From positions 7,531,322-7,595,321 of the forward strand of contig OU696583.1 in NCBI GenBank assembly GCA_916048095.2: a DNA stretch of 64,000 bases, given 5' to 3'. The notes under the pieces were generated by a model that was not told the origin of the DNA, searched no databases, and was given only the letters and a program-made list of their open reading frames with translations. A program made the position numbers and the translations under genes. This document shows, in pieces, positions 29,286 through 50,189 of the stretch; position 1 is the stretch's first letter, and each line of letters opens with the position of its first letter. This stretch comes from Sacculina carcini (Eukaryota > Arthropoda > Thecostraca > Sacculinidae).

Positions 29286-29923
29286 AGGGCGTAGATACCG
29301 GAGGTATGGAGGGAATATTTACCCCCCCAACCCCCACTGACAAATTGGCCGGGGGGGGGGGGAATATGCAAGTTATTCATATAATTATCTGATAATTCCG
29401 ATAATTCTGCTGAGCTCAGTAGAGATGGTCATCAAAATCAGCATAGCAAAATATTAGCTATAGATGACAAGAGCTCTATATATGTGCGTTAAGTTATACG
29501 CAATATACTTTTCATTGAGGTATGCAATTTGTAATTGAAAAGACCGAAAATGGTTGATTGTCCCATGTAATAGACCAGTTCTTAACCGGGGGTGCGAAGA
29601 TTACCATATTTTTTTAAAGAAATTATTTGTTTAGTCTATTAATTTATATTTTTCCTGAAAAACGTAGTTGTGATTAATCCTCTTAAATGAGTTTTACGAT
29701 AGAATATTAAATATTAAGTTTTGTTATTATGTCGTTTGTATTGATATATTTTCGTATACAGCGCTGTCAAAAATACAGGAAATACGAGAGCTGGCTGCTA
29801 ATTTGAAAGCGGTTCGAACACTGAGAAAGGTTGAGAACCACTGTAATTGACCAACTGAGTCAACTTTGAACACTAATGCATGATGGCTGTCATCCCCCCC
29901 GAGCCTCGACACAAATCTACGCC
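29286..29923. mobile_element. GGGCGTAGAT-ended MITE interrupted by a hAT-like MITE
   Basis: Starts AGGGCGTAGAT and ends ATCTACGCC. The right side (CCAACTGAGTCAACTTTGAA, GATGGCTGTCATCCCCCC, GAGCCTCGACACAAATCTACG) recurs at 51316-51395, 56303-56390 and 58028-58521. A second element occupies 29576-29843. Confidence 0.85.
29576..29843. mobile_element. hAT-like MITE with 8-bp target duplication
   Basis: Ends CAGTTCTTAACCGGGGGTGC and GGTTGAGAACCACTG. Flanks TAATAGAC and TAATTGAC form an 8-base duplication with one mismatch, as expected for hAT. Confidence 0.8.
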
Positions 29924-29938
29924 ATTGTTAATGTCAAT

Positions 29939-31125
29939 AGCCTCCCGCATGGGATGTCACAGACACTTAACATCGTGGTAAATGGATGTCAGATGAAGAC
30001 GCATTCACATCCTTCAATGCACTGTAAACATGGAATAATTGAAAACGTCTGAGATCCCCAAGAATCATACCATGCCAATGTCACTGTGTGTGTGTCTTAC
30101 AATACTTAATAATTAAAAATTTACGCATTTGAACACAGCAGTGTAAAGGCTAATGTTCGCGTGAATTTATGCATGGGCAAAGCCTCACGGCCCCGGCTGG
30201 CACACCGCAGGTCCGGCCGCACGGGTTTTGCAGTCACCGCCAGCACAGAAACTGCACGACTTCGCGCACACAAAACCCGCATTGCGACAATTGGGCTACC
30301 CTTTCAGAAACGAACCCAAACGTTTCACCTCGCCAGGGAATCGAACCCTGGACCTCTCGTGCACAGAGCGTGCCTCTTAGCCACTCGGCTACGAGGCGGA
30401 CTATACAATACTTGAGTGTGTGTGTCTGTGTGTATGCTCTTTTTGCCATTATCAATTCGGACTTCGTTTGATGTTGAAGGGTCATAGTGCATGTGAGACT
30501 ATAAAGACGCCCAGAATCAACAAAACATAATGATAGAAGATAAATTAACTGCAAACATTTAATGACATCATTGACTAATTTCAATAGAGGAAAGCACATC
30601 TTTTTGATAGAAATAATTGGACTAAAATTGGCCGTAGAGATTAATATGATAAATTAAAACTGACTGAGGTAAAGTGATGCTGAAACCACGGAAAGTTCGA
30701 GGAGGTAAGAAATCGACCCTGTAGGACGGCATCACCGCTATGCCCCATCATTCCCTCAACACAATAATTTGAATCAAACAATCGAGCACCGTTCAATTCA
30801 CAATTGGAGCTAGTGAGGTAGAGGGCTGACGGGGACTAAGATGCCAGAGCTCGGCGAAACATAAAGGGTTACCATCGATATGTTCATGGTGGAGATTGTT
30901 TTGGGGGAGGGGCTCAGTGGAGGCTTGACTCATTTTGAGGGGGGCTCAAAATCCCGCAGGGGGTATTTGACACACACACAGTGACATTGGCATGGTATGA
31001 TTCTTGGCATCTCAGACGTTTTCAATTATTCCATGTTTACAGTGCATTGAAGGATGTGAATACGTCTTCATCTGACATCCATTTACCACGATGTTAAGTG
31101 TCTGTGACATCCAATGCGGGAGGCT
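29939..31125. mobile_element. Element with 158-bp inverted repeats
   Basis: The left arm 29939-30096 and the right arm 30969-31125 are reverse complements with about four differences. They enclose about 870 bases that include a SINE. The arms start GCCTCCCGCAT and reach inward to GTGACA plus a TG/CA tract. Likely a foldback-type or large-TIR DNA element; no transposase seen. Confidence 0.85.
30165..30403 (-). mobile_element. SINE with tRNA-Ser/Leu-like head
   Basis: The minus strand begins CCGCCTCGTAGCCGAGTGGC (box A TAGCCGAGTGG) and has GGGTTCGATTCCCTGG (box B), both intact, followed by a GC-rich body to about 30165. The acceptor strands GCCTCG/CGAGGT pair. The GC-rich body differs clearly from the AT-rich intron. 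Only one copy was seen here. Confidence 0.75.
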
Positions 31126-31196
31126 ACACACTCAGGGGGGCCCTACGAAACCCCCTGATTAAAATCCTCCATCCACCGCTGTGTAAATCCACTGAC

Positions 31197-31333
31197 CTCT
31201 AGAGAAGGACCGAGAAGATCACCAACCACGGTCACACGTCCCCACTCCGATCCCTCGACCACATCTTCGGGCAGGGTCAATGTCCAGCTGACCTTGGGCT
31301 CATCCATGCCGCTCGTCAACTCGTTATTCTCGG
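31197..31333 (-). CDS. TEP exon 16: first CUB segment
   Basis: Reads PENNELTSGMDEPKVSWTLT, then LPEDVVEGSEWGRVTVVGDL and LGPSLE. The LPxxVVxGS...VxGDxLGP pattern immediately precedes the thioester domain. Acceptor CTACAG, donor GAG followed by GTCAGT, phase 0. Confidence 0.94.
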
Positions 31334-31429
31334 CTGTAGGACAATATACGTGGCAACATCACAGCCGGGGCATCACCAGGCTCACTTCGCCAAGAGGTGC
31401 GGTGACTTTTGATCAAGCCACTAGAGAAT

Positions 31430-31535
31430 AGGTTCTTAACCGGGGTATCGATACCCCTTGGAGTATGGGAACCAAACGTTGGGTGTCTGAGACTGGATTT
31501 CTGGGTACCGGTATCAATTATCAATGGTTTATTAA
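31430..31535. repeat. Fragment of a CTTAACCGGGGTAT-type MITE
   Basis: GGTTCTTAACCGGGGTATCG and GTGTCTGAGACTGGATTT match the piece at 63937-64000. Truncated; lies just upstream of exon 16. Confidence 0.55.
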
Positions 31536-32046
31536 TAGCAAAAATTTCGATAGTCATGTTTTTTCCTAGTAATCCGTATCTAAAGTACAGTTAATTCAAG
31601 CAATTGAAATACTCGTGGATCTGGAAAATATACTGGCAAATAATAGGACTGGTGATAATTTTTTCGAACAGCCAAGTAAAGGGGGTAAGGATAACTATTC
31701 GACTATCCATTATACAAAATAAACTACATTGGAGATAATCACAACCCACACTACTACATTCGATATATACAAAACACACTACATTGTTCTTAATATAGTA
31801 TAATTCATATTAAGCTGGCTATATATTCTACGATTGGTCAGTCACACCAACTTTTGCCACCAAAAATCCCGACAAATTTGCTTGGAGCAAATCTGCACGC
31901 TCTAAACACACACACACACACATACACAATCTCTCTTGGTGTGTTTACACAGCGGTAATTGTGTGTGTGTGTGTGTGAGTGTCAGTGTGTGTGTGTGTGG
32001 GTGTCTGTGTGTGTGTTTGTGAGAAATTGAACTTGATCCAACTCAC

Positions 32047-32129
32047 GCGCTACGCAGATAAAACTCGACTTGGTGTATTCTCGCGGGAAACCCTCGGGCA
32101 CGACCAGAATGGGACGAGTGATGGCATCT
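32047..32129 (-). CDS. TEP exon 15: MG7-CUB linker
   Basis: Reads DAITRPILVVPEGFPREY then TKSSFICVA; the D-x-I-x-R-x-I/L-L-V-x-P-E-G string is conserved across the family. The acceptor TGTGTAG is the end of a TG repeat. Donor GTGAGT, phase 1. Confidence 0.93.
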
Positions 32130-32381
32130 CTACACACACACACAATTCAGTGGTAACAATACACGTCAACTCTCAAATAGCCGTATCGCAACGACTAAGC
32201 CGCATTGAGAAAAACAGAGAACACGGCTATATAGCAATCTCGCCCTTCAACCAAATGATCTGAGAAAATACAGCCAAATTATGCTAGGTGAAATGGTTCG
32301 TTTGCGTTGCTTCCGTTTCGTTTGCGCGTTTTTATCTAAATATCCTGTCTACATGCCTGTGTTTTCCTTGTTGGTCGAATT

Positions 32382-32815
32382 CGAATAGCTATGAATGCTA
32401 TAAATGTTATAATAACTATAAATGAATCCTGCTGGTCGGCAAAATCCTTCTCTTTCATCGCACCTCGCTTCTTTAACTCGCTCCCCTCTCACATCCTTCT
32501 TTCTTCTTCTTCCTATGCTTCATTCACCTCTTCCCTACGCAAATACCTATTCTCTTTATCATTTGAGCCTGTCACTCACTCTCTGACGCCTTACGCCAAA
32601 CTATAATTCTCTATTGTCTCATCCCTTTTGTGATATTATTCAAACTATCTCTTCGTTTTCATCGTTTACTTGCTTACCTTGTGTTCACTATACATATCGC
32701 ATATTTGTGTTGATGCTGCGACCACGCCTCCCATTATCGTCGTGTCTCATTTTTGTGCTTGGCTCGCGTGTGTGTTATTTATATGCGCTATAGATATACG
32801 TTGTTGTTGTTGTTG
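32382..32815 (+). mobile_element. LINE 3' end with 11-bp target duplication
   Basis: The plus strand codes SCWSAKSFSFIAPRFFNSLP, then ASFTSSLRKYLFSLSFEP and ends LTPYAKL-stop, the C-terminal tail of a CR1/L2-type LINE. A 3' UTR ends in GCGCTATAGATATACG then (TTG)n. TTGGTCGAATT at 32371-32381 and 32816-32826 is an exact target-site duplication. It is a 5'-truncated insertion, young enough to keep its duplication. Confidence 0.9.
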
Positions 32816-32887
32816 TTGGTCGAATTGGCGCGCTGTAATGAATACACTTGATTGTTGTAGTTGCTGTTTTGCGAGCGGAACACTTAC

Positions 32888-33093
32888 TGGAAAGCCACCA
32901 CCGTCTCGGGACCGCACTCGAGCGGATATTCGGAATCAACGGTCGCCATCACCGTCATATTCACCTCTCCGAGATTCTGCGATCGCACTTGGAACACAAC
33001 CACCTGAGGCCGATCGGGCGAGACGCAAAGGCTGATGCGTTGGTTTGACAGCAGCTCCAGACGATTTTCCGTGTCGATAAAAGTCAGTGCAAC
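32888..33093 (-). CDS. TEP exon 14: MG7 end
   Basis: Reads VALTFIDTENRLELLSNQRI, then LCVSPDRPQVVVFQV and ends GPETVVAFQ. Two cysteines (SLCVS, LECGP) fit the MG7/CUB region. Acceptor TACAG, donor GTAAGT, phases 0 to 2. Confidence 0.93.
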
Positions 33094-34034
33094 CTGTACA
33101 AACGTAATCGGCCTTTAAATACTGACAAAGAACGGTGGATAGAAAGGGAGCCATGCTGTTACGCCCCAGGTATGATTGGCCCGCTTCAGTCCCGGGTCTA
33201 TTCTTCTCCCTATGGTTGATTGGGTAAGGTTAGATTAGGTTAGTTAGGAAATAGAAGAGAAAGAGAAAGAGAAAGAAGATCCGGATTAGTTAGGAAGAGA
33301 AAGAGATTCGGGACTGAAGTGAGGCCAAACGTGTCCGGTGCAAACTGTCATTAGCTCCAGATAGAACATGCTCAATAAATACAGCATAGAGCATAAAAAC
33401 CGGGCGTTGGCACAAATGTCTAAAGGTTTCATACAAGATAAATGAACATGAGAAACTCGACAAAACCACGCGAAGAAAAGCAAAACACTACCCTTCACAA
33501 AGGAATGACCTACCTCACGCCATATAAGCTAGAAAATTTAATTAAATTTCCCTCATGGAAAATTAGATCAATTAGCACGCACGTGATCCCTATCTGTGTG
33601 AGTTACCAAATGAAGACACCCACGGATGAGCTATTCAGCTACTTTTGCTCTGTTTCTCTCCTCACCTTGGATATTGTATAAATTATGGAAAAAAGTGACA
33701 ACTAAAAAGTACGAGTTGAAAGATACACGCTCCCCAGACAAGACACTTCTCATTCTCAACTCTTCAAGACATATCACTCCTCAACAATTAACAAAAGCAA
33801 AACAGTGAAACATACGGTATAAAAACCGTCAAATACTACACAATCTAATCACAAATGCCTCCGTACCTTAAAAATGGGGGGTCTGATATACATGGCAGTA
33901 CGTCTTTTAGCACCAGTATGTAATTATATCTGATGAAACATTCAATGAAAACATATATAAAATTAAGAGCTCATTTTTAGCTGGCCAGGACACCTATTTT
34001 CAGCTATTGGTACAGGTATTTAATGGTTAAAAGG

Positions 34035-34376
34035 TTAAAGACCTCAAAGAAAAGCTGCTACACGGGAAGAAGCCGAAGCTTATGAACACACAGGTGTGTC
34101 CCGTGCAGCTAGCTGCCACCGCAGAACCGACCCTATCCACGCTATGGCGCCAGAAGGACGTAAGACGTATTAGAGAGGGTAACTTCCCCAGAATGCATGG
34201 CATAACACATGATTGATATCTGGTACCATTTGCTGCTGGGTGAACAGGAGCTGCTGGATATAATATAGAATATAGAATCTATATAATTCGCCCAATGAAA
34301 TTCTCCTCCGCCGGGATTCGAGCCAAATACCTCCCGCTTGTGAGGCGGGTGTGCTACCACTACACCACGGGTCCAA
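34035..34376 (-). mobile_element. tRNA-Val-like SINE, copy 2 (best preserved)
   Basis: The minus strand begins GGACCCGTGGTGTAGTGGTA, has an anticodon arm CCGCCTCACAAGCGGG (CAC) and GGCTCGAATCCCGGCGG as box B. The body of about 250 bases matches copies at 17777-18108 and 46880-47085. Confidence 0.85.
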
Positions 34377-34574
34377 AATATTTCTGCGAGGTTACAATAC
34401 CATTATCATATGTGATTGGTCGGACATTATTTGTCAGGCAAATATTACTAAATACTTCTTCCAGAATTTTTGTCTAAAAATTGAGGTATCTTATACACAG
34501 GGATCTCATATATGCGGAACAATACGACATGCGCGCGTGTATGAGTATGTGTGTGTGTGTGTGAGTACACCGAC

Positions 34575-34806
34575 CGGTAGATCATGTTGTTCATAGTTGA
34601 AAATGGACACTTTGAGGTTGAGCGTCTCATTGCGCTGTAGCGAGTAGGGAATGGTGGCGCGCACGAAGAACGGCTGGAAGGTGACTAGAGTGGCAGCTGA
34701 GGGGGCCACACCAAGACCCTCGGAAGCCGACGAGCACACCGCTCCCGCCTTCCACTCGGTGATGGTGTCGGGAGCTTCACTGGTCCATGTTGCCTCTCCT
34801 TGCTTG
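34575..34806 (-). CDS. TEP exon 13: MG7
   Basis: Reads KQGEATWTSEAPDTITEWKA, GAVCSSASEGLGV and TFQPFFVRATIPYSLQRNET; the PDTITEW-x-A and QPFF strings are MG7 signatures. Acceptor GTGTCAG with phase 2, donor GTCGGT after DLP, phase 0. Confidence 0.95.
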
Positions 34807-34857
34807 CTGACACCGGCCAACCACGACCAAGAAGCAAGAGGAGAAAACAGGAGTTAG

Positions 34858-35497
34858 TGGACGATACCGAATATATTGTCTTGATGTGTTGTCTTGATGG
34901 TCACTGAAAATGAAGTGACTGGTAATGAACACTAAAAGATCTCACTGACATATTCATACCAACCTTTGTCTTAAACATGTGGGTATATTGCTTTACTCAC
35001 CACTATTCAATCATAGCACACAATTAAGCGAAAATCAATGTGTTCTAATTGGAAAGTGTGGCATTTCAACGGTGATACGCTGAATCAGCTTTCACGCACG
35101 AAGAAGTCCACTTGTCGAGATGGCCTATATACTGCAACGCACAGCTCTTGTCTACAATTAGCAGTACGGCATTTCGGGCCGGACAATTAGAATCGTGATT
35201 TTCAAACTGGGAGAACGTTCCTACCAGGAAGGCATCTAAAGTTAAGACGGCGAAACAACTACTTTACATTTATACTTGATACTAACAGCGCTCTACCGAT
35301 TTTACCCTTTAGTATGCTGACATCAGCATATTTGCATAGCGGAAAAATAGAATAGCAAATAGTGACAGATTGTTTCAACTACAGAAGAGACCACGACATG
35401 AAGAGGTCAATTTGGACGATTGCACTTAATACTGTAGTGGAAGCGTGTACGAGAGAAAACGTTCGCGGAGTCAGTGAAGTAGTCAGTCTGGATTCAC
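34858..35497. other. TEP intron 12 (part), unique AT-rich
   Basis: No repeat family or gene recognised. Confidence 0.5.
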
Positions 35498-35597
35498 CTG
35501 GTTTCAACCAGATCGAACAACCAGGTTTCCGGAAAGTGTGTGCGCACAGTTTGTGGTGTATCAACCGGTTCAGGCTCGGATGCTCCTGGAGCTCCAC
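35498..35597 (-). CDS. TEP exon 12: HFPETW block, MG6 second half
   Basis: Reads GAPGASEPEPVDTPQTV and RTHFPETWLFDLVET; HFPETW-x-x-D is one of the most conserved strings of the superfamily. Donor CAG followed by GTGAAT, phase 2. Two acceptors are possible: TTCTAG before 35597 (phase 1, fitting the cassettes) and CTCAG before 35625 (phase 0, which would join exon 11 directly and add MLTEDVIVL). The second would give an isoform lacking any cassette. Confidence 0.9.
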
Positions 35598-36536
35598 CTA
35601 GAACGATCACATCTTCAGTCAACATCTGAGCTCCACCGTGAAGGAGTGCACGTGATTTGCACGGAAGAGCGTTGGGCAATGCAAACCGACGTGTCAGTTA
35701 TAACTAGAACTCATGATAGACACGATCAACAAATACGCTTTGGAATTGCTTGAAAATAAGGCAACACAAATTATTATGTCAAACATTAAATTTACGATAC
35801 AGAACAAAACACAATGATAAACATTTGCAAGAATGCTGCTAATTTGATTGATCTCTCTTGATTGCATGCTGCACATTATCCGCATGCATGGATGAGAGAT
35901 GCTGGATTTGCAAAGCACATTCATGCAAGAATGACGATTCATGCAGGCACCATAGCTGGGATAGAAAGCAGAAATAGTCACGCAAAATTAATCGCCAAAT
36001 TTCAATCAAAATTCCAAAATTCAATTCCATTACAAAATTCAATTCCAAAATTCATCGCCAAGTTAAATTTCTCACCAAGCCTCTAGCAGCAAAGCGAATG
36101 TTGAACCTTTCTCATCCAACAAACCCTAACCCTTCTTATCCAACAAACCGACACCAAAAAACCACACCAATTTTAGTGCAACGCAGCATTGATAATATTG
36201 CAATAAAAGCGAATAGATGGACGGGTCAAAAGCGATGGTAAATTGAATTCAACCAAACTAAAGTACGCACAAAATACACCGTCATTGGACATTTTCTCTC
36301 GGCCAGCGCTGAAGCAAAATATCTTAGGACCGTCCTTATAAAACTGTATGGATTAATGGGCGGGCTTTGATAGCAAGATGGGCTTTGATAGATGTTGTGC
36401 TGTGAGCACAACGTTTATGTTGTAGTCACATACACACGAGGTAGTCACATACACATAGCAAGTAGCAGTGGGCTCGCACATACAAGCAGAAGCTTAGCGA
36501 TGTCGCTGATAAGTTCATAAGTTGTCTGGAGAGTAC

Positions 36537-36687
36537 CTAATGAGAACTGCATTGGTCCATTTAATCTGACCGCTTCTAACGCAACAGGAGAGTCCACCGA
36601 TAGCGGATGAAATCGTCGACGAGCTGTGTGGCGCACGCAAGGACCCAGACGATGTGCCCAGTCACTCAACACAGCCACACTTCCCAG
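36537..36687 (-). CDS. Alternative variable-region exon V5 (candidate)
   Basis: Opens LGSVAVLSDWAHRLGPCVR, continues HTARRRFHPLSVDSPVALEA and ends LNGPMQFSL. Acceptor GTTGTGCAG, donor GTACTC, phase 0 to 1. It is the last cassette before the constant exon 12. Confidence 0.75.
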
Positions 36688-36859
36688 CTGCACAACACGA
36701 TATGTACGATTAAGACCGCGAATGTTGCCAACTCTACAATGCCATGCAATGTTGACCGATCAGCCCACACAGAAAACCGTTGATTTAGCAATCGATAAAT
36801 GCCAAATCGTGCAATGAAACAAGTGAAAATATTTTTGTGTGGAATTTCTCCGTCAAACC

Positions 36860-37024
36860 TTCCAGGGGGGCTTGGATGGACTGAATCAACCCCAATATAT
36901 GTCAATCCCCTGAACCCCCCAAAAAATCCTGACCATGAACATTTCAAGTGTAGTGCCTCGTCTTTGGCCAAGCCCCCGCTTTTTTCCCCAGCCCCCTACC
37001 AAAGAAATCCCGGCGCCGCTATTG
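36860..37024. mobile_element. GGCGCCGCCACTG-type MITE, copy A (diverged)
   Basis: Shares CCATGAACATTTCAAGTGTA, GCCAAGCCCCCGC and CCGGCGCCGCTATTG with the copies at 37841-38017, 42251-42431 and 52498-52620. Confidence 0.7.
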
Positions 37025-37502
37025 ATTCGAATGTTTGTAGAATTCGTTTGTCAAAGTGCTTTGTATTCCAGAAATATGGACTTCTCTAAAGCCACAAAAA
37101 TATGGACTTCTGACAGGATCGCTCGTATATTCGTAAAATTTCGACGATGAACAAATAATTCACTTTTGTCGAGTTCCTGGCAGACTTTTCACTGTATTGT
37201 CAAAGACTGGTATTTATGCGGCTCCAAGAAACACGGCGCTGCAAACATGAAAGCGTAGCGAAGGATTTCTGCACATTCAAATGCCTGCCAAGAACCTCTA
37301 ATAGCCGTGGTATGCTTAATTTAACATAATTAATTTAATATAAATATTGGTATGAACTGATCTGACGTGAAAACAAACACAAAAACAAAATGTGGGTGTT
37401 TGAAATTGCCAAAACTTCAGACAGACTTGCGTGATTGATCCTGGCTGAGTCCCGCTTGGGCTATGTACGAGTTCACATGCTAACTAACCTGGTTTTTCTC
37501 AA

Positions 37503-37600
37503 ACTATAGCTTTTGGGCGCTTCTGATACATGGGGCCACAACAGGATGGTAATAGTGCTTGCCCACATCCGATGACACTGAATTTGCATGTAATTGTAAG
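37503..37600. repeat. ACATGGGGCCACCGCAGG repeat, copy 1
   Basis: GGGCGCTTCTGATACATGGG and GGTAATAGTGCTTGC match two further copies at 46076-46190 and 50626-50735. In those the 3' end is TAATTAATAATAAT-like, which suggests a LINE or SINE tail. Confidence 0.65.
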
Positions 37601-37840
37601 TACCTAGACAATTTCAAACATTGGTTACAAGTGTGGTGTACAAGACAACTTAACGAAATATAATTCGTTTTAATCAACGTCAGAATTAATGAGGGATTTC
37701 ATTAATTTAAAAAACACGTCCCAGTAGCTTATCAACGGTATGCGAAATAAGTGTATGCCGATAACACACACACACACACACACACCCGATCGTGCACACA
37801 TGCGATGACCAAATTCCACAAAAATTGTCAAAGAAAATCC

Positions 37841-38017
37841 GTGGCGGTTTTAAGCGGTTTTGGAGGAGCTGAAGCCCCCCAAAAATGTGTCAAGCGTCCC
37901 CCTTGAGCCCCCCAAAAAACATGAGCATGAACATTTCGAGTGTAGTGCTTCATGTTTCGCCAAACCCCCGCATCTTTTTGTTTAGCCCCCACCAGAACAA
38001 TTCTGGCGCCGCCACTG
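37841..38017. mobile_element. GGCGCCGCCACTG-type MITE, copy B
   Basis: Starts GGCGGTTTTAAGCGG and ends TCTGGCGCCGCCACTG. Lies 118 bases downstream of the V4 donor. Confidence 0.75.
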
Positions 38018-38134
38018 AAGAAAATTGAATACAAACGCTCTGCCAACCCACCCACATAAACTTAAATACCCAGCAAGGACAGTAGGTAATCCACACCCCC
38101 CACAGCAAATTATAATAAACCCACGGCGACTGAC

Positions 38135-38309
38135 TTGTCGCTGAAGTCAGCATAAATCCATTGGTACCGCTTAGACCCAATGGTGCTGTTTCATGTGCTA
38201 CAAACTCGGCGGGCGCTGACATAGCGCTCATTTGCATATAGCGAGGTCCGACGCGCGTGCAAGGACGAGCTTGCTCAGCCCAGTCATTCAGCACTGCCAC
38301 TCCACCAAA
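38135..38309 (-). CDS. Alternative variable-region exon V4 (candidate)
   Basis: Opens FGGVAVLNDWAEQARPCTR and ends GTNGFMLTSAT. Acceptor CTTGCCTTGCAG is strong; donor GTCAGT; phase 0 to 1. Closely matches V5 (VAVL-N/S-DWA, PC-x-R) and V1. Confidence 0.75.
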
Positions 38310-39492
38310 CTGCAAGGCAAGGTATGATATGATCCATAAGCTAGCGGTTCTGGACATTTTCCCTGTCTGCACCCCTTTCAAGTCGTAAGTCAGTTCTCGA
38401 ACCCCCTTGATAGCTATATCAAAGAGAAAAAGATACAAACGATGCAATATCTCCTCGCACACTGTTTAAGAGGATTAAGCAGAAAAAAAATCCGGGAAGC
38501 ATAGTTAAAAGCCTATATTTTCTTGAATTTTTACAAATCTTTTCTTGAAGTTTATGAGGATTTAACAGAAAGATATTTCCGGTAAAAATGTAAAGCATAG
38601 TCTATGTTTTCTAGAATTTTTTTCGCGTGGATCCTTGAACTCTTTGGGAACCAGGTTCGCATCCCTAAGGATGCCACAACCCCCGTCTAAGAGCCCATGG
38701 ATTAAGCCGTCGTTATTGGGCAGAAATCGATTGGTCGTTGCCTGAACTGTTCTTGTTAAGGTGGCTAGATAGTGTGTGTGATAGTTATAGATATTATGTC
38801 AGCTCGTGAAATAAATTCATTGGACTGCCGCTGGTCAAACTGTTCCATACAATCCAATAAGCAATGCATTCACTGGAGAGAAAAACTGAAAAATGGAAAT
38901 GCTTCTGTTTTTGAAGTCGAACAATTAGATAGTGCCCAGGAAACCATAAGATCAAACCATCACAAAAAAGACACGCTGGAAAATATCACGAAGAAAAAAC
39001 ACCTTTCCTCATCAGAACTGCCCAGAGAAGCCAAGTGCGGGTATTACTGTAGAGAACGACACCACAGAACAACGAATCGCAAACAACAGTTGTAGGCAGC
39101 TTGATTGGAGAAAAATGCAATAACGCAGATGCGTTCGTTTCCGGTTGGAAGAAGAGAGGCATGCAAAAGGTCCGATGCGAAAACTGACTGTGAATGTGTT
39201 CAACACCAAGAGACAGTAGTCATAACCTGTAGCATTTTCTCAATCCAAATGAAAAACAAGAGAGCCGTAGCAATGAAAAGTTTTCATTGTTAGTACCTCA
39301 CACCAAGTTCACATATTTCACGAATAACCCTGCACCTCTCAACAGGTTTTCTTTCCATAGGATCCTCATATCTTTACTGAGATGCCATTTACGAGCCCTC
39401 TCCAAATGCAGCTTCGGTGATACCTCACAAGACGATGCTGAACACACGTGGAACCTAGCACAGACACAGAAGACACATCACATTCCAACTAC

Positions 39493-39721
39493 CTGCCGAA
39501 GAACTGGACAACGTCGGAGGTGGGACACGACTGCCGGTAGTGGAGGTGGTGATGGAGGGTCGCGTGCCGCCTAAACTTTGTAGCGCAATGGCGGCAAACT
39601 CTGGCTGGCTTCCCTGGTGGCGTTGGCACGGCCTGGTCGGCAGCTGGAAGTCGCTGTTCACCGCTGAAGCGGCCATCTGTAGCGCGTATGAGAACAAAAA
39701 GGTTTCTACCAGAGTGGCGGA
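39493..39721 (-). CDS. Alternative variable-region exon V3 (candidate)
   Basis: A 229-base open unit, acceptor CACCAG and donor GTAGTT (same donor sequence as V1), phase 0 to 1. It reads SATLVETFLFSYALQMAAS, later LPTRPCQRHQG, then a Ser/Thr/Pro-rich tail. The opening is less like the VAVLTD motif of the others, but the TRPCQ string is shared with V1. It is GC-rich compared with the surrounding intron. Weakest member of the array by similarity. Confidence 0.55.
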
Positions 39722-41326
39722 CTGGTGCAAGCGCGTAAGCAAGCGCAATTAGAGACAAGAAAGAAGATGCACATTTAATGATACACTTAACATATGTTTC
39801 ACGATCCCGATAAACTCAGCCGTATGGCGAAAATGACCACTTACAACCGATGAAATATAACTGGACATCAAGCGAACAGATTATCGTAAAATAAGTCAGG
39901 TCCGCCCAATCATCCCACCAATCTTGCAAGCTTAATATCGCGCAAGAGTAAGACAAACGTACTTCACATCATCAGATGACGCTGGCTGAAAAATATGAAG
40001 GAACACAAAAATTGATTGTGCCTGTGGGTCACAAACAAAGATGACGAGACCATTACACACACACATACACACAAACACACACACACACACACAAAGGCGC
40101 AATATTACGAGTTCCACGCATCAACCAACTTTGCCTCTTGTTGTTGCACGAAGCTTTTTTCGCTGTCCATGCAGAATCCGCGACACCGACACTGGCTTGG
40201 CTTGGCTTTCAGCCAACTGTGGCGCCTGGTTTTTACGAGAGGCGACTGTGTTTGCGTTTGGTGGCGAAGGGTGCCATTTGGTGACAGTGTTACGACGACG
40301 AGGCGACGCTCGAAACTCGACGACACGAGAGCAAACAGACAGACCTCGAAGAGGTGTCCTCTGCTTCAATTCTTTGCTTTTCCGCTCTGCAATTTGGCTG
40401 TTGGATAAAAACCCGTGCCGTGTCGTGCTGCGATGCCAAACGACCACCGCTAACGTCCAATTTCGCCAGCAATTTGGCAGTTATTCGCTGCCGACACTAT
40501 CCCATTGTGAAATGGTAGCAACTGCAGAATATGTGCCGTTCACAGACTGGATGAGATCCATGACTTTTCTACATGATCTCATGATCGCAGAATCGAATGT
40601 TGGCTCCTTGTTATACTGACAACAATAATGTTGGGTTAGCTATTCCTTGAGCAAGCTACTCCCTTTGAGGAGTGCAGCTTCTGTGTACAAACCAACATAA
40701 AGTGATAAACTTTCTACTAGATCCTTGGTTAAATGCCTATCTTCTTTCACTGATTCCCCACTTCTTAATGAGACAACTCTATATTTCACACAAGAGCGCT
40801 GATAATTTCAAGAAAATATGTTGTTCCACCAAATTAAATATAAGGAAGTCACTATAGAAAGGAAAATAAACGAATTCGGATTGATAAAACACATATATAT
40901 CCTTCAGTGCGACCTTCATTTCTCCACATGGCATCCCCTCCATTCTCCACTAGTGAGGAATTCTCAACAACTTACGGATCACTGTTTTCAGAGATGCCTG
41001 GCAATATGATAATAGCTTATGAGAAGAAAGCTTATGCAGCACACGGGCAATATACAGTAAAGCTGAAACACTCGATAAGTCTATGACACCAGCGATTAAA
41101 CGACGGAATTGCTTGCGATAACTGAAATTTCCGACGATGGTTAATCGTAAGTATGAAGGTTCATCCTACACCGCGTGTCAACATGCAAGCGCTATGCCTT
41201 ATTAAGTGTATTACGCAGAGTAATGTGTGTCTGAATGCTTTGCAGATCTTGAGGCGCATATATTTACAATTTTAACGATTCCCGCATCTTAATTGTGTGC
41301 ATGCGTCATGTGTCATGAAATCTTAC

Positions 41327-41492
41327 TGCCGACACGGCTGGGAGATTTTCTTCTTATGGCTGGATTCAAGAGCGACAATTGCAGTATTTGCTGGGAGCTC
41401 TGGATACGCGGAACTAAAGACAAAGTACGACGATTTAGCAGACAGATTCTCGTGTCGATCAAGAGATCGGTGAGCCGCGCCACTCCGCTCGT
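41327..41492 (-). CDS. Alternative variable-region exon V2 (candidate)
   Basis: Opens TSGVARLTDLLIDTRICLL and ends RRKSPSRVG. The acceptor TTTTCAG is excellent and the donor GTAAGA is consensus; phase 0 to 1 like the other cassettes. The motif GVARLTD plus a downstream Cys aligns with V1, V4 and V5. The tail is basic rather than acidic, unlike V1. Confidence 0.75.
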
Positions 41493-42250
41493 CTGAAAAC
41501 CCAAATCAACTAGCAATACACGAGCTGGATAGTCGCGCACAATTGGTCTCTGTGGCTCCATTTAGAATAGTCACCCTGTCGAACGCTGGCTATCTCATGA
41601 ATCTAGTCCATTTCAACGTGTAAAATTTGCACGTACACACTTGGTGCGCCACATACAACCTACCGTACTAGCGTACCAGCTCACCGTATATGCTGGTTGA
41701 TGAAAACCGGCCCTAATTGCAGAACGTTGCACAAAAAAGCGCAAGTGAACCGGATCAATTGATTGCAGATAAATTAGTGTCATCGTGCTAGGAAACAAAT
41801 GGATGAAGACAGATACTTAAGACCATGGGTACAACTTCGCTAATTGGCTGTGAGAGGTAGTTAGGAAAAACAATACTGTTTTCATGCAGGCAACACATAC
41901 TGAACTACTATAGTGGAACGACACATAAAATACGCTACAAATGAGATCTGCCACAATAATCAGCACTGCATATTACGGCTGACGTAGAAAGAATAAGTTG
42001 GTAAAACGAACTACGGCAAAACTGCGTAATTCGCAAAAGCGGTGCTATAGTGCTCGACTCCACATGCGCACTCTGATGAGAACAAATAACATCCAAGGTT
42101 GCACGACCAACAAACGACACCCTGTTCCGTCAAGGTGAATATGTACAGCAGGCCAACTTATTTACACCCTCCCGACACATCAAACCGGAACTCTCAATCG
42201 GTGATGCTTCACCCTTTCTTATAAAAACCTCACATTAATCATTAGCAAAC

Positions 42251-42431
42251 AGCGGCGGTGACAAAAGCGGGCTTGGAGGAGCAGAACTTCTCCCCTAAAT
42301 GTGCCATGCCCCCCCTGAGCCCCCTAAAAATCCTTGCCATGAGCATTCCGAGTGCAGTTTCGCCAAGCCCCCCGTATTTTTTCCCTTAGCTCGCCTCAGC
42401 CCACACGGAAAAAATTCTGGCGCCGCCACTG
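42251..42431. mobile_element. GGCGCCGCCACTG-type MITE, copy C
   Basis: Starts AGCGGCGGTGACAAAAGCGG and ends TTCTGGCGCCGCCACTG, with short inverted ends. Lies between V1 and V2. Confidence 0.78.
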
Positions 42432-42663
42432 TTATCAAAATTGTTGACAGGAAACCGTGGACAAGGAACGATTCCCAATCAACTGGACGAGTTTGCACGA
42501 TGCAGCGCCCGTCTGCTAGTCAAACGTATCCCACGTCAATGCTAACTCGAATACGTCCACTTCACCATATCTACAAGAGACAATCGAGTAAAACAATCGA
42601 CGAAGCAACATTGAGAGTGCCAGGGTGAGTGTCCGGGAGCTGAGGCCGGAACAATGCAACTAC

Positions 42664-42835
42664 CTTCCGCTGCCAGCATAGTATTTTGCTGAGTGAAAAC
42701 CGGGACCGGCAACGGCTCCTCACCAACGTCGTCCTCCAATACTTCGAACGAAGAAAAATAGACAGGAGTTGGCGAAATGCTCGCTTGACACGGCCGCGTC
42801 TTCAGTGTGAGACTGGTCAGTACAGCCACACTGGC
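42664..42835 (-). CDS. Alternative variable-region exon V1 (candidate)
   Basis: Opens ASVAVLTSLTLKTRPCQ and continues through ISPTPVYFSSFEVLEDDVGE, ending QQNTMLAAE. Acceptor GGAGACAG, donor GTAGTT, phase 0 to 1, which joins exon 11 (phase 0) to exon 12 (phase 1). It resembles V2, V4 and V5 over the first 17 residues and differs afterwards. In TEP/CD109 proteins this position holds a G-L/V-V-V-L-T-D strand followed by the hypervariable segment. Confidence 0.72.
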
Positions 42836-42864
42836 CTGTCTCCAAGCACACAAGTAGGTTAGTT

Positions 42865-42990
42865 AAGTGTAACCCGGATATAAGAGATTTGTCAGGAATG
42901 GAACAAAAGTCTCTCTTATATCCGGGTGAAATTACACGTAAACTATAGAAGACGGGCCAGAGGAAAAACTCTCTTTTAATCGGGGTTTTC
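42865..42990. mobile_element. pogo-like MITE, AGTGTAACCCGGATATAAGAG ends
   Basis: AGTGTAACCCGGATATAAG at one end and TCATATCCGGGGCACACTG at the other are imperfect inverted repeats. A related copy lies at 53850-53970. It ends about 30 bases upstream of the V1 acceptor. Confidence 0.7.
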
Positions 42991-43099
42991 TCATATCCGG
43001 GGCACACTGCAGTGCGTGGAAGCGCACGTGCAAGACGATTTGTGAGTAGAAATTCGGCTTGGAGAATACACAAACTGAATACATGGCCGGTTGCGTGAT

Positions 43100-44080
43100 G
43101 CACGTGTAACAATATGCTATTCTCATAGCAGGATGTGGTGTTTGCAATCTAGCGTTGTCATAGCAACAAGAATTGATTGATGCAATGAACTGCGATCATT
43201 GCAACAATGCACACTCCTTCCAACCAACAAACACAGCCGTAACGAATGAGTCAAACACAAACAGCATGACCCGATATATACACAAATCGCTCCTTGACCC
43301 AATATACTTGCTGGAGACGAGCGGTGCACCAGGCTTTGAATTCTGTCAGATTGTCATGTGGCGACCATGGTAAATTGCCACTTGAAAAAACTCCTGACAA
43401 TTTCTGCGTCTCGACAAATCATTGGGCCGGGCCAATTTTGCGTTCTTATTCAGCTTGCTGTTTCTGATTGCATGATGGCATAGAGTGCAGAAAAACATTG
43501 CCGTATGCAAATTTCAACACTAGGTAGAGCTGCACTAAAAAACCTGGCGTAAATTTGGAAAAATAACTAAATATAAGGATTAGATTAAGACACACAATAA
43601 ATAAAATAACTTTGAAATATTATGAGAAAACTTTATGACAGGCGTTGTCAGCAACGCAACTATACGCGCATCTTAAGAATTGCTATTTGGAGGTTCTGTT
43701 CATAACAGAAGCACATGATGAGAAACAGAGGACTATTTCCTGTATATGTCTATATGCCGTTCTGATTTTCACACCGAGTAAACTCGCTAAATTACCAAGC
43801 AAATTAAATTCAATATTACCTATTCGCATAGTCAAAATATGACCAAAATTAACATTGAACATGTGACAAAAATTATGTTAAATTATTATATTTACTTATA
43901 TTAGTGTATTTTAAAATATAATAAATTATGTACTACAAATATTACATGATTTAAATTACGATTTCCAAATTTTTAGTTGTTTACTGCGAAAAATTACCGC
44001 TGAACTCCAATTGAACATAATTAACTCCAACAAGATCATAGATTTCTTTTAATATCAAAGTTACAATCAAGTCGATAATT
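43100..44080. other. TEP intron between exon 11 and V1
   Basis: AT-rich with no recognised repeat or exon. A minus-strand open stretch near 43170-43370 lacks a fitting donor. Confidence 0.5.
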
Positions 44081-44128
44081 TGCGTATCACCGTTTGTGTA
44101 TGTGTATGTGAGTTTGTGTGTGTCGTAC

Positions 44129-44364
44129 GTCGAACGCTGTCACGGTGTCAACATAAGGTGACTCCCAGAAGGAGCCTCCCCAGTGTCGTCCCCAGGTGCT
44201 GCGACGTTGACGAGGTGCCCTCGGCAAAGGTGCGCGTGTGCTTGGGACGGTCACAGGGATAGGTTGTGCCGGCGGGTCAGTGAGATTGTCTTCTTCAGCA
44301 CCAGAGAGCTCTTCATCATGTGAATCGATCAATTCCCCACCATTCTCCTCAAGCTTTGTAGGTT
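44129..44364 (-). CDS. TEP exon 11: acidic/proline linker with furin-like RQRR site
   Basis: Begins EPTKLEENGGELIDSHDEEL, passes through a Pro/Thr-rich stretch and LPRAPRQRRSTWGRHWGG, and ends SPYVDTVTAFD. RQRR fits the R-X-K/R-R furin consensus at the place where C3 and CD109 are cut. The acceptor TTATAG is phase 1. The chosen donor GTACGA after GAC gives phase 0 and fits every downstream cassette; a GT a few codons earlier is a weaker alternative. Confidence 0.88.
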
Positions 44365-45165
44365 CTATAATGAGACGACATGCATACACATGCATGCATA
44401 CGCATGAGCTTGCTCGATGGACATTTCTGCCATTTTATTACTTGTATATTCGTATGAAATGATTGCGATGTGAAAAGTGTGGCAATAAACTGCACAAACA
44501 AACAAACAAACACACACATACAAACAATACAAACAATACAATACTCATTTACTTAACACACCCACACGCACACATATATATATATATAGTAAATTTTCCA
44601 CCATATCAACAAAGCTTGTAGTTCTCAGCATTAAAATGTGGTTTCTTCCCGGCAGCATTTCTCAGTTTGCCCATAAGCAAAAACTATGCAATAACAGGCA
44701 CTCGTTTGAACAACATTTCCCATCCAAAAAGGGGAGATAAAATAAGGAGTTAGAAAATCGATTAATTGTTTTGAATGCTATCTTAGAAATTTGAGCGTTG
44801 TCTAACAAAAAGCGTTTGTTAATGCTATACGAGTGGGTGTTCAGTTTTTACAAATACACATACAGTGTGTAATTTGATTAATATAATACAAGTTTAACGT
44901 GAAAGCTCTGAGATTTAATGTGTTTGAGTAGGGTTTGATATTTGGGAAAAATGGCCTTTCGGCCAACAATCGTGAAACTTCCACCGCTTTGACGTAGTTC
45001 TGAAAATTGGTGTTTTCAGAAAATTTGAAAATCGTTTGAAAATTGGAAAAAACGGAGCCAGCCATTCCGCCCGCATTACTTGATTTTCATACTTTCGTAA
45101 ACGTAAGTGTCACCCACACACACACCCGCACATACATATAGCACAAATGGAGATGTCAAACACAC

Positions 45166-45240
45166 CTGGGATGATCATCTCCTCGATTTCTTCCAACGAC
45201 AGTTCCGGAAGACGTCCCGGCTCAATATTGGCCTCGCCGT
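45166..45240 (-). CDS. TEP exon 10: short acidic linker exon
   Basis: A 75-base exon coding GEANIEPGRLPELSLEEIEE followed by MIIP. Acceptor CAACAG, donor GTGTGT, phases 1 to 1. It leads into the linker/furin region and is strongly acidic. A small phase-symmetric exon could be skipped without shifting the frame. Confidence 0.85.
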
Positions 45241-45739
45241 CTGTTGTGCAATTGCAAGCACAAAAATCAGTGTTGCCCGTGCAACAAGCGTAGATAAATC
45301 TGGTAGGTAGATTAGGTATGTGAGCTGCCGTAATAGATTACTCTTAACATATATAAGAGATCATGCATCTGTCCGCAAGTGTGTCCAGATAATGTACGTA
45401 ATTGACTGTCGCCCACGTTCAACTTTGCGTAATTGCTTGTCGTTTAAGTTCGCACTCTTCAACGATTAAAATCAGCAAGTTTTTATATCAGTATATACTA
45501 GTGATGTATTTATTTCGGGTTATTTGTTGATAGTAAATATTTTCAGCTCTCTCCAGGAATCCCTGCACTTAACGATGATATAATAAACTCTTTATATCCA
45601 GGACACGCAAACGTACTAAGGATTTTTGCCAGTTTTACTGATTACAGCGGTAAATGACACTTAAATAACGTGAATCGCAAAGAACTTTGTGCTCAAAACC
45701 CCAACGGAGATACCACATAAGACAAAACATATTTATCAC

Positions 45740-45883
45740 GTTTTTCCTGGCAGTACTCGTAGTCATTCTGTTGAGGTCTACCATCGTAGCGACCAATGTT
45801 GAACTCCTTCAGTCGACGGAAAATGTCTTCCAGTCGCACACGATGCGAGTTACCCAGCAAATTCACCGATTTGTCCACAATAT
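45740..45883 (-). CDS. TEP exon 9: MG6 (VDKSV block)
   Basis: Reads DIVDKSVNLLGNSHRVRLED then IFRRLKEFNIGRYDG, the conserved MG6 VDKSV-LL-...-L.LEDIF strand-helix. Acceptor GTGCAG; donor GTGATA after 45740, phase 1, matching exon 10. Confidence 0.92.
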
Positions 45884-46075
45884 CTGCACATGATACACGT
45901 GCACACAAAATCGATAATTGTTTAGTACACCTGAATATCTGCAAGAAACTTTCTGCAGCAGTAACACGTTTTCCAAATTTCGCAAGCAAACCCAAATCTC
46001 AAATTTATTTCTAATGGTTCTTTCTTCATTAGCTTTGAATTTCCTGACTAAAGCCTTTACCATTCGAATTCCATT

Positions 46076-46190
46076 TCATTCTAAATCTTGTGGGCGCTTC
46101 CGGTACATGGGGCCACCGCAGGGTGGTAATAGTGCACTTGCACTCTTCCCCCATGCTACTGGATTTGCCAGTAATTAATAATAACATTAA
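46076..46190 (+). repeat. ACATGGGGCCACCGCAGG repeat, copy 2
   Basis: The plus frame reads MGPPQGGNSALALFPHATGF and the copy ends in TAATTAATAATAAC. The conserved reading frame in two copies hints at a LINE ORF2 C-terminus. Confidence 0.65.
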
Positions 46191-46879
46191 TAGTATTAAT
46201 AATAGCTTTATTATGCGAACCAAAATAATTGTAATAGTTGTGAACGTGTTTATTTCATTGTTTATTTATTATTATTTTATTTTATTCCTCATATTACGCA
46301 TCTTCGTCTAGTATGTAGGCGACATTGAATACATTTGTTTCTTTGTTAGTGAGTCAACCAATATTTGTCCATAATTGTTTGATATCAATATGTGTCGGCA
46401 AAGTTTTTCGTGTCAAATCGAACATATTTCACATTTGCTCTGAAACATCAGGCCATTTTCGATATTTTCTGACTTATAACAAACCTTACTTTCAATTCCG
46501 TCTTGAATTCCGCTTTTACTCTAACGAATTGATTGATAAAATTGACAAATTCTCTTTATAAGTAGTGGTTATATTTGAATATAATTCAATATGTAAAAAT
46601 TTAATTTAATCATGTTGTGCTTCGATTATATCAGGATTATAATTTAATCATGGGTCTGCTTAGAATTCCAAGACCAGCCATGCATTTATATGCATTGCAT
46701 ACTCAAATTATATTGGGTATGTGGGTATTATATAAACACATACTTTGGCGACAGAATAGTTCTTTTCTACGAGCATTTAGCGACCCAATAAAATGGATTG
46801 CAGAGCCAACATTGAGTGACATCACAGGGATTAGGAACCAATACTATAGAAAACACCATATGCAGCACACTCCAAAAAC

Positions 46880-47085
46880 CAGATATCAGTCATGTGTTGT
46901 GCCATGCATTCTGGGGAGGTGGCCCTCTCTAATACGTCTTCCGTCCTTGTGGCGCCATAGCGTGGAGAGGGTTGGTTCTGCGGTGGCAGCGAGCTGCACG
47001 GGGCACACCTGTGTGTGTTCCTAAGCTTCAACTTCTTCCCGTGTAGAAGCTATCACTTGAGGCCTTTAGCGTTTAACTTTTAAAC
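46880..47085 (+). mobile_element. tRNA-Val-like SINE, copy 3 (head lost)
   Basis: Contains AGATATCAGTCATGTGTTG, CTCTCTAATACGTCTTCCG and GAGCTGCACGGGGCACACC, the SINE body in plus orientation, without the tRNA head. It ends about 20 bases from the donor of exon 8. Confidence 0.8.
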
Positions 47086-47105
47086 CACACATTTCGCAGA
47101 CTTAC

Positions 47106-47330
47106 CAAGACCACATAGCGAATTGGCAGCTGAGGTGACTTGTAGCGACACCAAATCTCCTGGACGAACACGCTGCTGTGTCCACTGCAGCGACACATTG
47201 TTGGCAAGACAGGGAGCGACCTGATAACTCTGCGAATCGGCCACTAATTGGCCATCAACGACCGTGTACACCAGCAGCTTGAAGTCGCTCGCCATATCGG
47301 CAGTGACATCCACGTGCAACTTCACCTCAC
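47106..47330 (-). CDS. TEP exon 8: MG6 first half
   Basis: Reads EVKLHVDVTADMASDFKLLV, then YTVVDGQLVADSQSYQV and ends AANSLCGLG, the block that precedes VDKSV in all family members. The acceptor CACACAG is formed by the end of a CA repeat. The donor is a perfect GTAAGT, phase 1. Confidence 0.95.
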
Positions 47331-47574
47331 CTGTGTGTGTGTTTGTGTGTTTGTGTGTGTGCGTGTGTGTGTGTGTGTGTTTATGCAAGTGCGTTCAGTT
47401 TAGTTCAGTTCAAAAACATGCATCATTTTTGAATTTATGTGTTTAATTTTTTTACGTATAGACAATCTAAATATTGTCAAATACTTCTTAACATAACAAT
47501 ATAACAATTACAGATTTAATAACACAAACCTACGACAACATCCCGTTGAGCTATACAGCTCTCAGACGCACATT

Positions 47575-47768
47575 CACCAGTATGTGTATGTGTATGTGTA
47601 TGTGTGTTTGAGTGAGTGCGTATCTGTGTGTGTATGTGTGTGTATATATATTTGAGTGAGCGAGTGAGCGTGTTTGTGTGTATGTATGTGTGCGTATGTA
47701 TGTGTGTGTGTGTTTGTTAGTTTGTTTATGTGTGTGTGTGTGTTTGTTAGTGTGTGTGTGTGTGTTTG

Positions 47769-47828
<60 letters not shown>
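47575..47828. repeat. Compound TG microsatellite
   Basis: TGTATG, GAGTGAGTG and a long pure TG run at 47770-47827, in intron 7. Confidence 0.9.
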
Positions 47829-47830
<2 letters not shown>

Positions 47831-48835
47831 GTTTGTCGGGAAGACAGTGAAAAATAGCCAACTAATTGTTGGAAAAACTATTAACTTGCAGACACGTCAC
47901 ACAAACATTGGTAGACATTTATAAGAAAAATGTGCAAGCTGACCGAGGCTATTTTTCAACAATAGTATATTATATTATACAATATTATATTTTTATTATA
48001 TAAGAATTATATAGAAATCCAAAGAATTAAAATCCAATAAAATACACCGAGAAATCCAAAGAAATTAACAGAATTATATAGACAATATAGGAATTATAAG
48101 AATTGATTATAGTAATATTATATAAGAATAATATATTAGTGAACAATATTATAGGTAGCAAAAACAGATTTTCTAGGACGAATATAGGAAAACGCACTGT
48201 TTTATTTCCCGAAACACATTCAACCAGATTTGCTCGTAAACATCAAGCCACAAGACTTTTATAGAAACAATATCGACAACTTGAAGTATATCCTAACGAA
48301 ATTCTACACAAAACCCCATTTTTATTTGAAGATATTTGAAGAGACATTACTGCGATTCCTGTCCATGTTTCACAATTAATTAATCATACTTGAAACTTTT
48401 CCCAAATTAACCAATTTGGTAAGGAGATTTCAAGGTAGCTGTGAATTCAAGTACATCTTAGTCGTATATCTTAGGCGTATCATCATCGTATCATCTTAGG
48501 CGATGTGCAGCCTGTAGGGAATTTCCCACTGGTGGTGGGAAATGAATGAGTTGCCAAGTGGGAAATTTAAGATCGGACAGAACAGGACAACTATGTGTGC
48601 GTGTGATTTTAATAAATCCGAATTGATATATTATCGTTTTAGTGGCTTATTGTGACATTTAATCTGGTGGAGAAACTGAATTTATTGCATTTATCAGCGC
48701 TATTGTGTGGAAAATGAAGAGATGGCTCATTAAGAAGTGGGGAATCAGAGAGGGGAAAAGGCTGAGAACCACTGACATATACCGACACGTGTGTTCACAG
48801 TTGCACGATGTTGCAATAAATCGACCAAATCTCAC
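47829..48835. other. TEP intron 7, AT-rich
   Basis: Repeated TATAAGAATTATATAG-like strings at 47990-48130, otherwise unique. A GTTGAGAACC/GGCTGAGAACCACTG hAT-like end lies near 48756-48774. Confidence 0.5.
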
Positions 48836-48968
48836 CAGTGGGCATAGTGTTGAGAACCGGAACTTCCGGCGCTTGCAACACCAACTCCCCATCACTGTAC
48901 AGGGGCTGATTTTGACTGAAATCCACGTTCATTGAGCCAGTGTGCAGAATGTTACCCCGACCCAACAC
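48836..48968 (-). CDS. TEP exon 7: MG5 to MG6
   Basis: Reads VLGRGNILHTGSMNVDF and ends APEVPVLNTMPTG. The RGNI block marks the second half of MG5. Acceptor TATAG, donor GTGAGA-like after 48836, phase 1. Confidence 0.92.

Positions 48969-50155: not shown

Positions 50156-50189
<34 letters not shown>

Follow-up and report, generated by a model that had tools for sequence, protein, structure and literature searches.

What do five short open units, lying in tandem within one intron of a thioester-family gene, contribute to the protein? In the window (the whole stretch of 64,000 nucleotides that was analysed), these units, V1 to V5, sit in a single intron between exons 11 and 12 of a gene on the minus strand. 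A preliminary description had read them as mutually exclusive exons for the hypervariable region of a thioester-containing protein (TEP), from which one gene would make at least five recognition variants. The five-cassette array is genuine, although one boundary needed correction. The gene that carries it is very probably an alpha-2-macroglobulin (A2M) gene with five tandem bait cassettes, one of which would enter each mature transcript, thereby offering different protease baits.

The recognised part of the gene, its constant exons around the array and the cassettes themselves are listed in Table 1; three further 5' stretches of the gene lie outside the window edge. Joining 13 exons, namely 12 constant exons and V1, yields 741 codons with zero stops, and the phase-2 join of exons 12 and 13 yields Ser. 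Exon 12 has 78% identity to the Amphibalanus sequence EPEPSEVPETVRTYFPETWLFDL (tblastn), and exon 11 aligns weakly with Amphibalanus WTTVNVDSLTAFD (tblastn, E 8.2, 52% over 21 residues). Exon 12 has a weak acceptor, which scores -1.6 at 35597; a second phase-1 acceptor at 35585 scores 1.0. The exon before exon 11 has a weak donor, AAAAAC/GTGATA, which scores 1.6; a competing donor of phase 1, at 45782, reaches 2.8, and its use would remove the conserved YC..K of this exon. Further upstream, the joins e-f, f-g and g-h have tentative borders; the join t-u scores poorly; all of these are outside the array.

Table 1. Features of the A2M gene recognised in the window, in order of transcription after the first row.
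Feature	Position	Strand	Description and basis
A2M gene, part recognised in window	16302..62157	minus	tblastn
Exon before exon 11 (DIVDKSVNLLG...DYEYCQEK)	45740..45883	minus	phase 1 to 1; tblastn to barnacle A2M, splice phases
Exon 11, constant upstream partner	44129..44364	minus	acidic linker rich in proline, followed by WESPYVDTVTAFD; final phase 0
V1 bait cassette	42664..42835	minus	172 nt; ASVAVLTSLTLKTRPC and acidic tail; profile score 31.0 at AG acceptor; splice sites
V2 bait cassette	41327..41492	minus	166 nt; TSGVARLTDLLIDTRIC and basic tail; profile score 21.8
V3 bait cassette, corrected start	39493..39676	minus	184 nt; MAASAVNSDFQLPTRPC and Ser/Thr/Pro-rich tail; profile score 16.2
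V4 bait cassette	38135..38309	minus	175 nt; FGGVAVLNDWAEQARPC; profile score 14.6
V5 bait cassette	36537..36687	minus	151 nt; LGSVAVLSDWAHRLGPC; profile score 8.0 at AG
Exon 12, constant downstream partner	35498..35597	minus	(G)GAPGASEPEPVDTPQTVRTHFPETWLFDLVET; phase 1 at start, phase 2 at end
Exon 13	34575..34806	minus	KQGEATWTSEAPDTITEW...; homology E=1e-23
Thioester exon (MPTGCGEQNM)	28666..28816	minus	72.5% identity to barnacle A2M (tblastn)

As originally described, the five units are open in frame 0, preceded by AG, followed by GT and 3n+1 nucleotides in length, and their tails are unrelated. The starts first assigned to V1, V2, V4 and V5 also hold, leaving V3 as the exception. From a start at 39721 its opening fails to align, and the acceptor there scores 0.1, compared to 2.4 for 39676. 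As the AG at 39676 places MAASAVNSDFQLPTRPC in register with the other openings, V3 is therefore 39676-39493, with its start moved by 45 nt.

The cassettes were scored with a profile of bait openings that excluded the window and was built from 29 distinct 17-residue openings, both barnacles being absent; its source was a regular expression, which matched an opening in 37 of 120 proteins (the best 120 of 731 matches). Cassette scores at AG acceptors were taken in a 16-residue register. These scores fall steadily from V1 to V5, and V5, the lowest of all, also has a weaker donor (2.9) than the other four, as could be expected if only V1, perhaps with V2-V4, were working, and V5 or another cassette were a duplicate in decay that never enters a transcript. 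Similarly, frame 0 comes out ahead in codon score in V1, V3, V4 and V5 (barely in V5, 0.02), whereas the score of V2 is negative and tied with frame 2, leaving this cassette without a codon preference for frame 0. Such partial use is nevertheless unlikely. Open frames, both splice dinucleotides, the 3n+1 length and an exon-like GC content have been kept in all five (0.51-0.63 in the V exons, relative to 0.42 in the surrounding intron and 0.46-0.65 in the 12 constant exons), and the chance survival of these features in a dead duplicate is improbable. It would be possible, however, for a young duplicate, for instance V4 or V5. The exon DNA of these two is alike (local score 21, against a maximum of 13 in 300 shuffles), and they are the only one of the 10 cassette pairs with DNA-level similarity above the shuffle maximum.

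Judged by its sequence, the gene is an A2M, closer to A2M than to other thioester proteins. Firstly, its nearest relatives are barnacle A2Ms: in a protein search with part of the gene, the best 120 of 731 matches included those of Amphibalanus (44% identity, E 8.4e-142) and Pollicipes (43% identity over the part searched). Secondly, a quick tree grouped these two with the window gene with an SH-aLRT of 100; in its alignment, the window row covered 42% of columns, and the composition of Amphibalanus was flagged as unusual. Thirdly, the solved structures (PDB) ranked as A2M at 133 bits, A2ML1 at 116, another A2M at 108, CD109 at 90 and TEP1 at 60. The gap between TEP1 and A2M in this search ruled out an insect-type TEP (Tep1/Tep2), and the original assignment of the gene as a TEP gives way to A2M on the barnacle matches, the structural ranking and the tree. 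Because the nearest relatives are barnacle A2Ms, and A2M outranks TEP1, the variable stretch is taken to be the A2M bait region; it is flanked by a conserved opening with a terminal Cys on one side and by the (F)PETW strand on the other. Pfam matches in the gene were TED_complement, A2M and A2M_BRD, the last over its upstream part (protein 4-85). The thioester GCGEQ is present, and the C-terminal receptor-binding domain is represented by 17260-17105 and 16472-16302, which align with residues 1416-1515 of Amphibalanus P0001, a protein that bears PF07677. A genome search found a single A2M locus.

The nearest homolog, Amphibalanus amphitrite pregnancy zone protein-like isoform X6 (P0001), known here from the protein alone, shares the flanks AFD...EPEP...VRT.FPETWLFDL. 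It is named as isoform X6, and its 90% cluster comprises 24 sequences, which may be bait isoforms. The bait part of P0001, used as a query against clustered proteins, in which isoforms of >90% identity are hidden inside one cluster, matched six proteins, including the named barnacle proteins P0001 and P0002, and one without a name. The other three presumably come from two spiders and one amphipod, going by their species names. The window gene has a His in TVLHKAMK, as does Amphibalanus in the counterpart RVLHQGMK; from C3, we take this to be the catalytic position of the thioester domain. A2M is described without a catalytic histidine in this domain in the part of PMC2685406 drawn on here.

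Barnacle macroglobulins also include settlement pheromones, according to the portion of PMC8371367 used here. Hence the gene might encode a macroglobulin of the SIPC or MULTIFUNCin type, with the variable exons diversifying a signal rather than a protease bait. This is very unlikely, as A2M-like proteins are the closest among the matches listed, the bait opening, thioester and flanks are all of the A2M type, and the names SIPC and MULTIFUNCin are absent among the best 120 of 731 matches, where names are shortened and many proteins are nameless.

The position of the cassettes within the intron also exceeds what chance would give. Profile scores above 4 were found at 5/440 AG acceptors in the intron, compared to 0/5,563 other AGs in the window, this threshold being picked post hoc with the scores already seen; scores above 0 were found at five intron AGs and 10 others in the window. 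In 180 kb fetched elsewhere, 5/16,538 AGs scored above 4, with a maximum of 4.8. Once the AG rule was dropped, V5 was unexceptional, as scores of 10.2 and 8.7 occurred at two unrelated places in the window, and values above 8 were frequent in random sequences; the score of V4 was exceeded once in 20 random 64-kb sequences. A homology-free scan for splice sites and open frames, with cut-offs fixed when the V scores were already known, identified eight candidates on the minus strand (V1, V2, V4, V5, three V3 starts and an extra one at 38140-37993), against one on the plus strand. Although open stretches are abundant on both strands of the window, many of them from microsatellites, there is only a negligible probability that the cassettes are exons of another gene or intronic open frames due to chance, given this strand difference, the A2M-bait-like openings exactly at five intron acceptors, and the fit of each cassette to the frame between exons 11 and 12.

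No convincing sixth cassette emerged from the profile or exon scans of the intron. The splice and open-frame scan yielded no candidate exon in the GC-rich open stretch at 40.1-40.5 kb, while 38140-37993 overlaps the end of V4 by six bases and has a profile score below 0. Nor were bait arrays found in the stretches fetched near four other thioester-family loci, where the best AG-anchored scores were 4.1-4.8; two places there without an AG scored 11.1 and 9.0.

The reading of the array as bait cassettes used one at a time follows from its phases. The frame is left in phase 0 by exon 11 and can be resumed in phase 1 by exon 12, as first proposed; because each cassette has 3n+1 nucleotides, one per mature transcript is expected. 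Any single cassette restores the frame, the path from the preceding exon through exon 11, V, exon 12 and exon 13 being stop-free in 5/5 cases. Skipping, or the inclusion of two or three cassettes, would shift the frame, and all four wrong joins tested carry stops (no cassette, V1+V2, V4+V5 and V1+V2+V3), bearing out the claim that two cassettes in series break it. Four cassettes in series would also keep the frame. The tandem cassettes, common opening and equal phase are features of a mutually exclusive exon array. Hence the earlier proposal of five one-at-a-time cassettes at the bait position is upheld in its frame logic and place, but not in its V3 border. Docking-selector RNA pairing, one known control route that is not obligatory, showed no excess over shuffles (13/20 and 6/20 shuffles were as good). 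Cassette choice would most likely depend on the frame and nonsense-mediated decay of wrong joins, with splice regulators picking the cassette.

In the proposed mechanism, each cassette would supply a conserved opening of 16-17 residues ending in Cys, putatively the last strand of the MG6 domain and the bait anchor, followed by its own exposed bait tail. A protease cutting this tail would trigger the thioester trap, and five isoforms would thereby widen the range of proteases trapped. As the gene is an A2M, and not an insect-type TEP, the variants are more aptly considered protease baits than recognition variants; the bait-region placement in the preliminary description is retained, but the recognition role is not. 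We infer from the sequence that the cassettes are spliced in singly in vivo, and that the protein is secreted, traps proteases and confers this benefit. Five baits, with their exon borders given exactly, are arrayed in the sole A2M locus found in what is probably the genome of a thecostracan (barnacle-lineage) crustacean, whose A2M bait diversity would therefore come mainly from splicing. The array also offers well-defined cassettes with which to examine whether bait choice alters with infection or life stage.

Alternative A2M baits are already known from ticks, shrimp and snails, in the sections of the literature drawn on here, and the window gene adds another case. Among ticks, arthropod A2Ms with alternative bait sequences generated through splicing include TAM of Ornithodoros moubata, with four variants, and IrAM of Ixodes ricinus, with seven (PMC5438962, PMC7962413, in part). 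Among crustaceans, A2M-2 of the shrimp Fenneropenaeus chinensis likewise has several bait variants, six in number, although this species is a decapod (cited in PMC7016707). The excerpted PMC7016707 also describes the snail Biomphalaria glabrata, in which the bait or bait-like region of both A2M (three variants) and TEP2 (12 mutually exclusive exons, in a tandem array over 30 kb) is encoded by alternative exons. Drosophila Tep2, in its exon 5, and scallop CfTEP use one of several exons at the matching place (both cited in PMC7016707), and are valid precedents, as initially suggested. Yet they are not the sole ones, given these A2M cases, and they belong to the TEP branch, whereas the window gene belongs to the A2M branch.

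The exchanged unit itself invites a closer comparison. Each cassette starts immediately downstream of the AFD found ahead of the bait opening, and therefore each isoform would swap the putative strand, the Cys motif (TRPC, TRIC, TRPC, ARPC and LGPC) and the bait. In three aligned tick-type A2M pairs, drawn from different species, variation lies in the tail and the opening ESGV.V.SDLTLETRPC hardly changes, whereas here each cassette has its own opening. In the two Biomphalaria A2M forms compared (P0051 and P0060), variation begins after TRPCSRRPQVFY, whereas here the opening itself varies. There is an even chance that the swapped unit is larger in this crustacean lineage than in ticks and snails, such that isoforms would alter a structural strand, a Cys motif and the bait together; perhaps this exchange tunes the way the bait is held in place in addition to its appearance. 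These comparisons suggest that the exon borders of alternative baits differ between lineages.

The intron between exons 11 and 12 of the minus-strand alpha-2-macroglobulin (A2M) gene contains five candidate bait cassettes, V1 to V5, which the preliminary description had proposed as mutually exclusive exons of a TEP hypervariable region. The coding properties ascribed to them were borne out, as all five units were open in frame 0, preceded by AG, followed by GT, and 3n+1 nucleotides long. Joining the preceding exon, exon 11, any one of the five cassettes, exon 12 and exon 13 gave an open product of 288 to 299 codons, using the corrected V3 start. Double inclusion broke the frame, as had been suggested: stops were present in the V1+V2 and V4+V5 joins, and also in the cassette-less and V1+V2+V3 joins, making 4/4 of the incorrect joins tested; four cassettes in series would be expected to retain the phase. 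The V3 start first given, 39721, proved wrong: the bait-profile match sits at 39676, and the original start was therefore 45 nt too far upstream. Exon 12 has two phase-1 acceptors 12 nt apart, which could add or drop four residues.

Features in window coordinates, with bait-opening profile scores at the cassettes' AG acceptors
Feature	Coordinates	Profile score
Amphibalanus protein, aligned extent (minus strand)	62157-16302	
Exon 11	44364-44129	
V1	42664-42835	31.0
V2	41327-41492	21.8
V3 (corrected)	39493-39676	16.2
V4	38135-38309	14.6
V5	36537-36687	8.0
Exon 12	35597-35498	
Exon 12 paired acceptors	35585-35597	
Thioester-domain stretch with TVLHKAMK	27910-28175	
Short interspersed repeat copies near V5, V4 and V1	36907-37024, 37899-38017, 42398-42431, 42866-43000	
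Reverse-transcriptase-like fragments (minus strand)	22659-23552, 61289-61744	
Three tandem units	4220-15924	

Each cassette begins with a conserved opening ending in cysteine, followed by a variable tail. Bait openings collected from other species, 29 in all, were compiled into a 17-column profile, and AG-anchored scores were compared with a threshold of 4, picked after the scores from an earlier scan had been seen. This threshold was exceeded by 5/440 AG acceptors in the exon 11-12 intron, and by none of the 5,563 in the rest of the window; at a threshold of 0, there were five inside the intron versus ten outside. Across 180 kb from elsewhere (16 stretches round four other thioester-family loci, and 2 upstream of the A2M gene), 5/16,538 AGs scored above 4, with a maximum of 4.8. 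Without the AG rule, V5 was unexceptional, as two unrelated places in the window reached 10.2 and 8.7, and the V4 score was exceeded once among 20 random sequences.

A homology-free exon scan, with cut-offs fixed once the V scores were already known, returned eight minus-strand candidates versus one on the plus strand; the eight comprised the five cassettes, alternative V3 starts at 39721 (that first proposed) and 39613, and an extra candidate at 38140-37993. Cassette GC was exon-like, and codon scores preferred frame 0 in V1, V3 and V4, and barely in V5, with a tie in V2. V4 and V5 are alike at the DNA level, which is the trace of a later duplication; similarity in the other nine pairs was not above the shuffle maximum, the nearest being V1-V5 (5/300 shuffles equally good). 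Short interspersed repeats lie near three cassettes, and genome searches with two of them found at least 41 and at least 40 matches, self included; such repeats might have aided exon duplication.

The gene itself is better described as an A2M than as the TEP originally suggested, as a solved-structure ranking placed A2M first (133 bits), with TEP1 well behind (60). The homolog query was a conceptual protein with exons chosen by eye, of which residues 300-900 were searched. Among the 120 matches listed, the best of 731 relatives, at 44% and E 8.4e-142, was Amphibalanus amphitrite pregnancy zone protein-like isoform X6, which belongs to a 90% cluster of 24 sequences; the other top relative was a Pollicipes pollicipes A2M-like protein (43%). 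The Amphibalanus protein aligns exon by exon, with three further 5' stretches outside the window. In a quick tree of 26 rows, the window row, occupying 42% of columns, grouped with these two barnacles, outside their pair (SH-aLRT 100). The source is therefore probably a thecostracan that branches outside both sampled barnacles; a COX1 search of the assembly gave no match. The histidine in TVLHKAMK is shared with Amphibalanus, and Pollicipes has tyrosine. Reverse-transcriptase-like fragments, recognised by eye, lie in A2M introns, and downstream of the gene are three tandem units, each about 3.8-4.1 kb, 96-97% alike over the compared parts, with inner repeats every ~340-400 nt.

When the Amphibalanus protein was searched against all 264 Mb of the genome, in 43 contigs, 17/17 matches at E <=0.001 fell in this locus. 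A thioester-domain family search gave ten matches, three in the A2M gene and seven on contigs C20, C22, C29 and C30; the latter loci match A2M-family proteins weakly, and a bait-like array was absent from the stretches scanned there. One thioester-family gene on C20 reads PAGSGEQN at C20:8104882-8104649, with serine in place of the thioester cysteine, and a later stretch of it (C20:8094244-8094020) has a near-copy at C30:2478931-2479155.

In A2M, protease cleavage of the bait causes a shape change that traps the protease (PMC12939704), and alternative baits are credited with a broader protease range (PMC5438962, PMC7016707). By analogy, a wider range would also be the best reading of the V1-V5 array. 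One cassette per transcript is predicted, with exclusivity imposed at least by the reading frame; a signal of RNA pairing for cassette choice was looked for, and none was found. Spliced A2M bait variants are on record for two ticks (PMC5438962, PMC7962413), as well as for shrimp A2M, snail A2M and TEPs (PMC7016707). The text of a barnacle adhesive macroglobulin paper (PMC8371367) contains neither "isoform" nor "splice". For Amphibalanus, public annotation already lists numbered isoforms, so it may reveal an array of this kind. In tick-type A2Ms, compared as pairs from different species rather than as isoforms of one, the opening up to TRPC is identical in 2/3 pairs, with one substitution in the third, and the tail differs; in the two Biomphalaria A2M forms compared, the opening is likewise identical and the tail differs. 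By contrast, each S. carcini cassette has a separate opening, which, judged indirectly from these sequences, may be a new feature.
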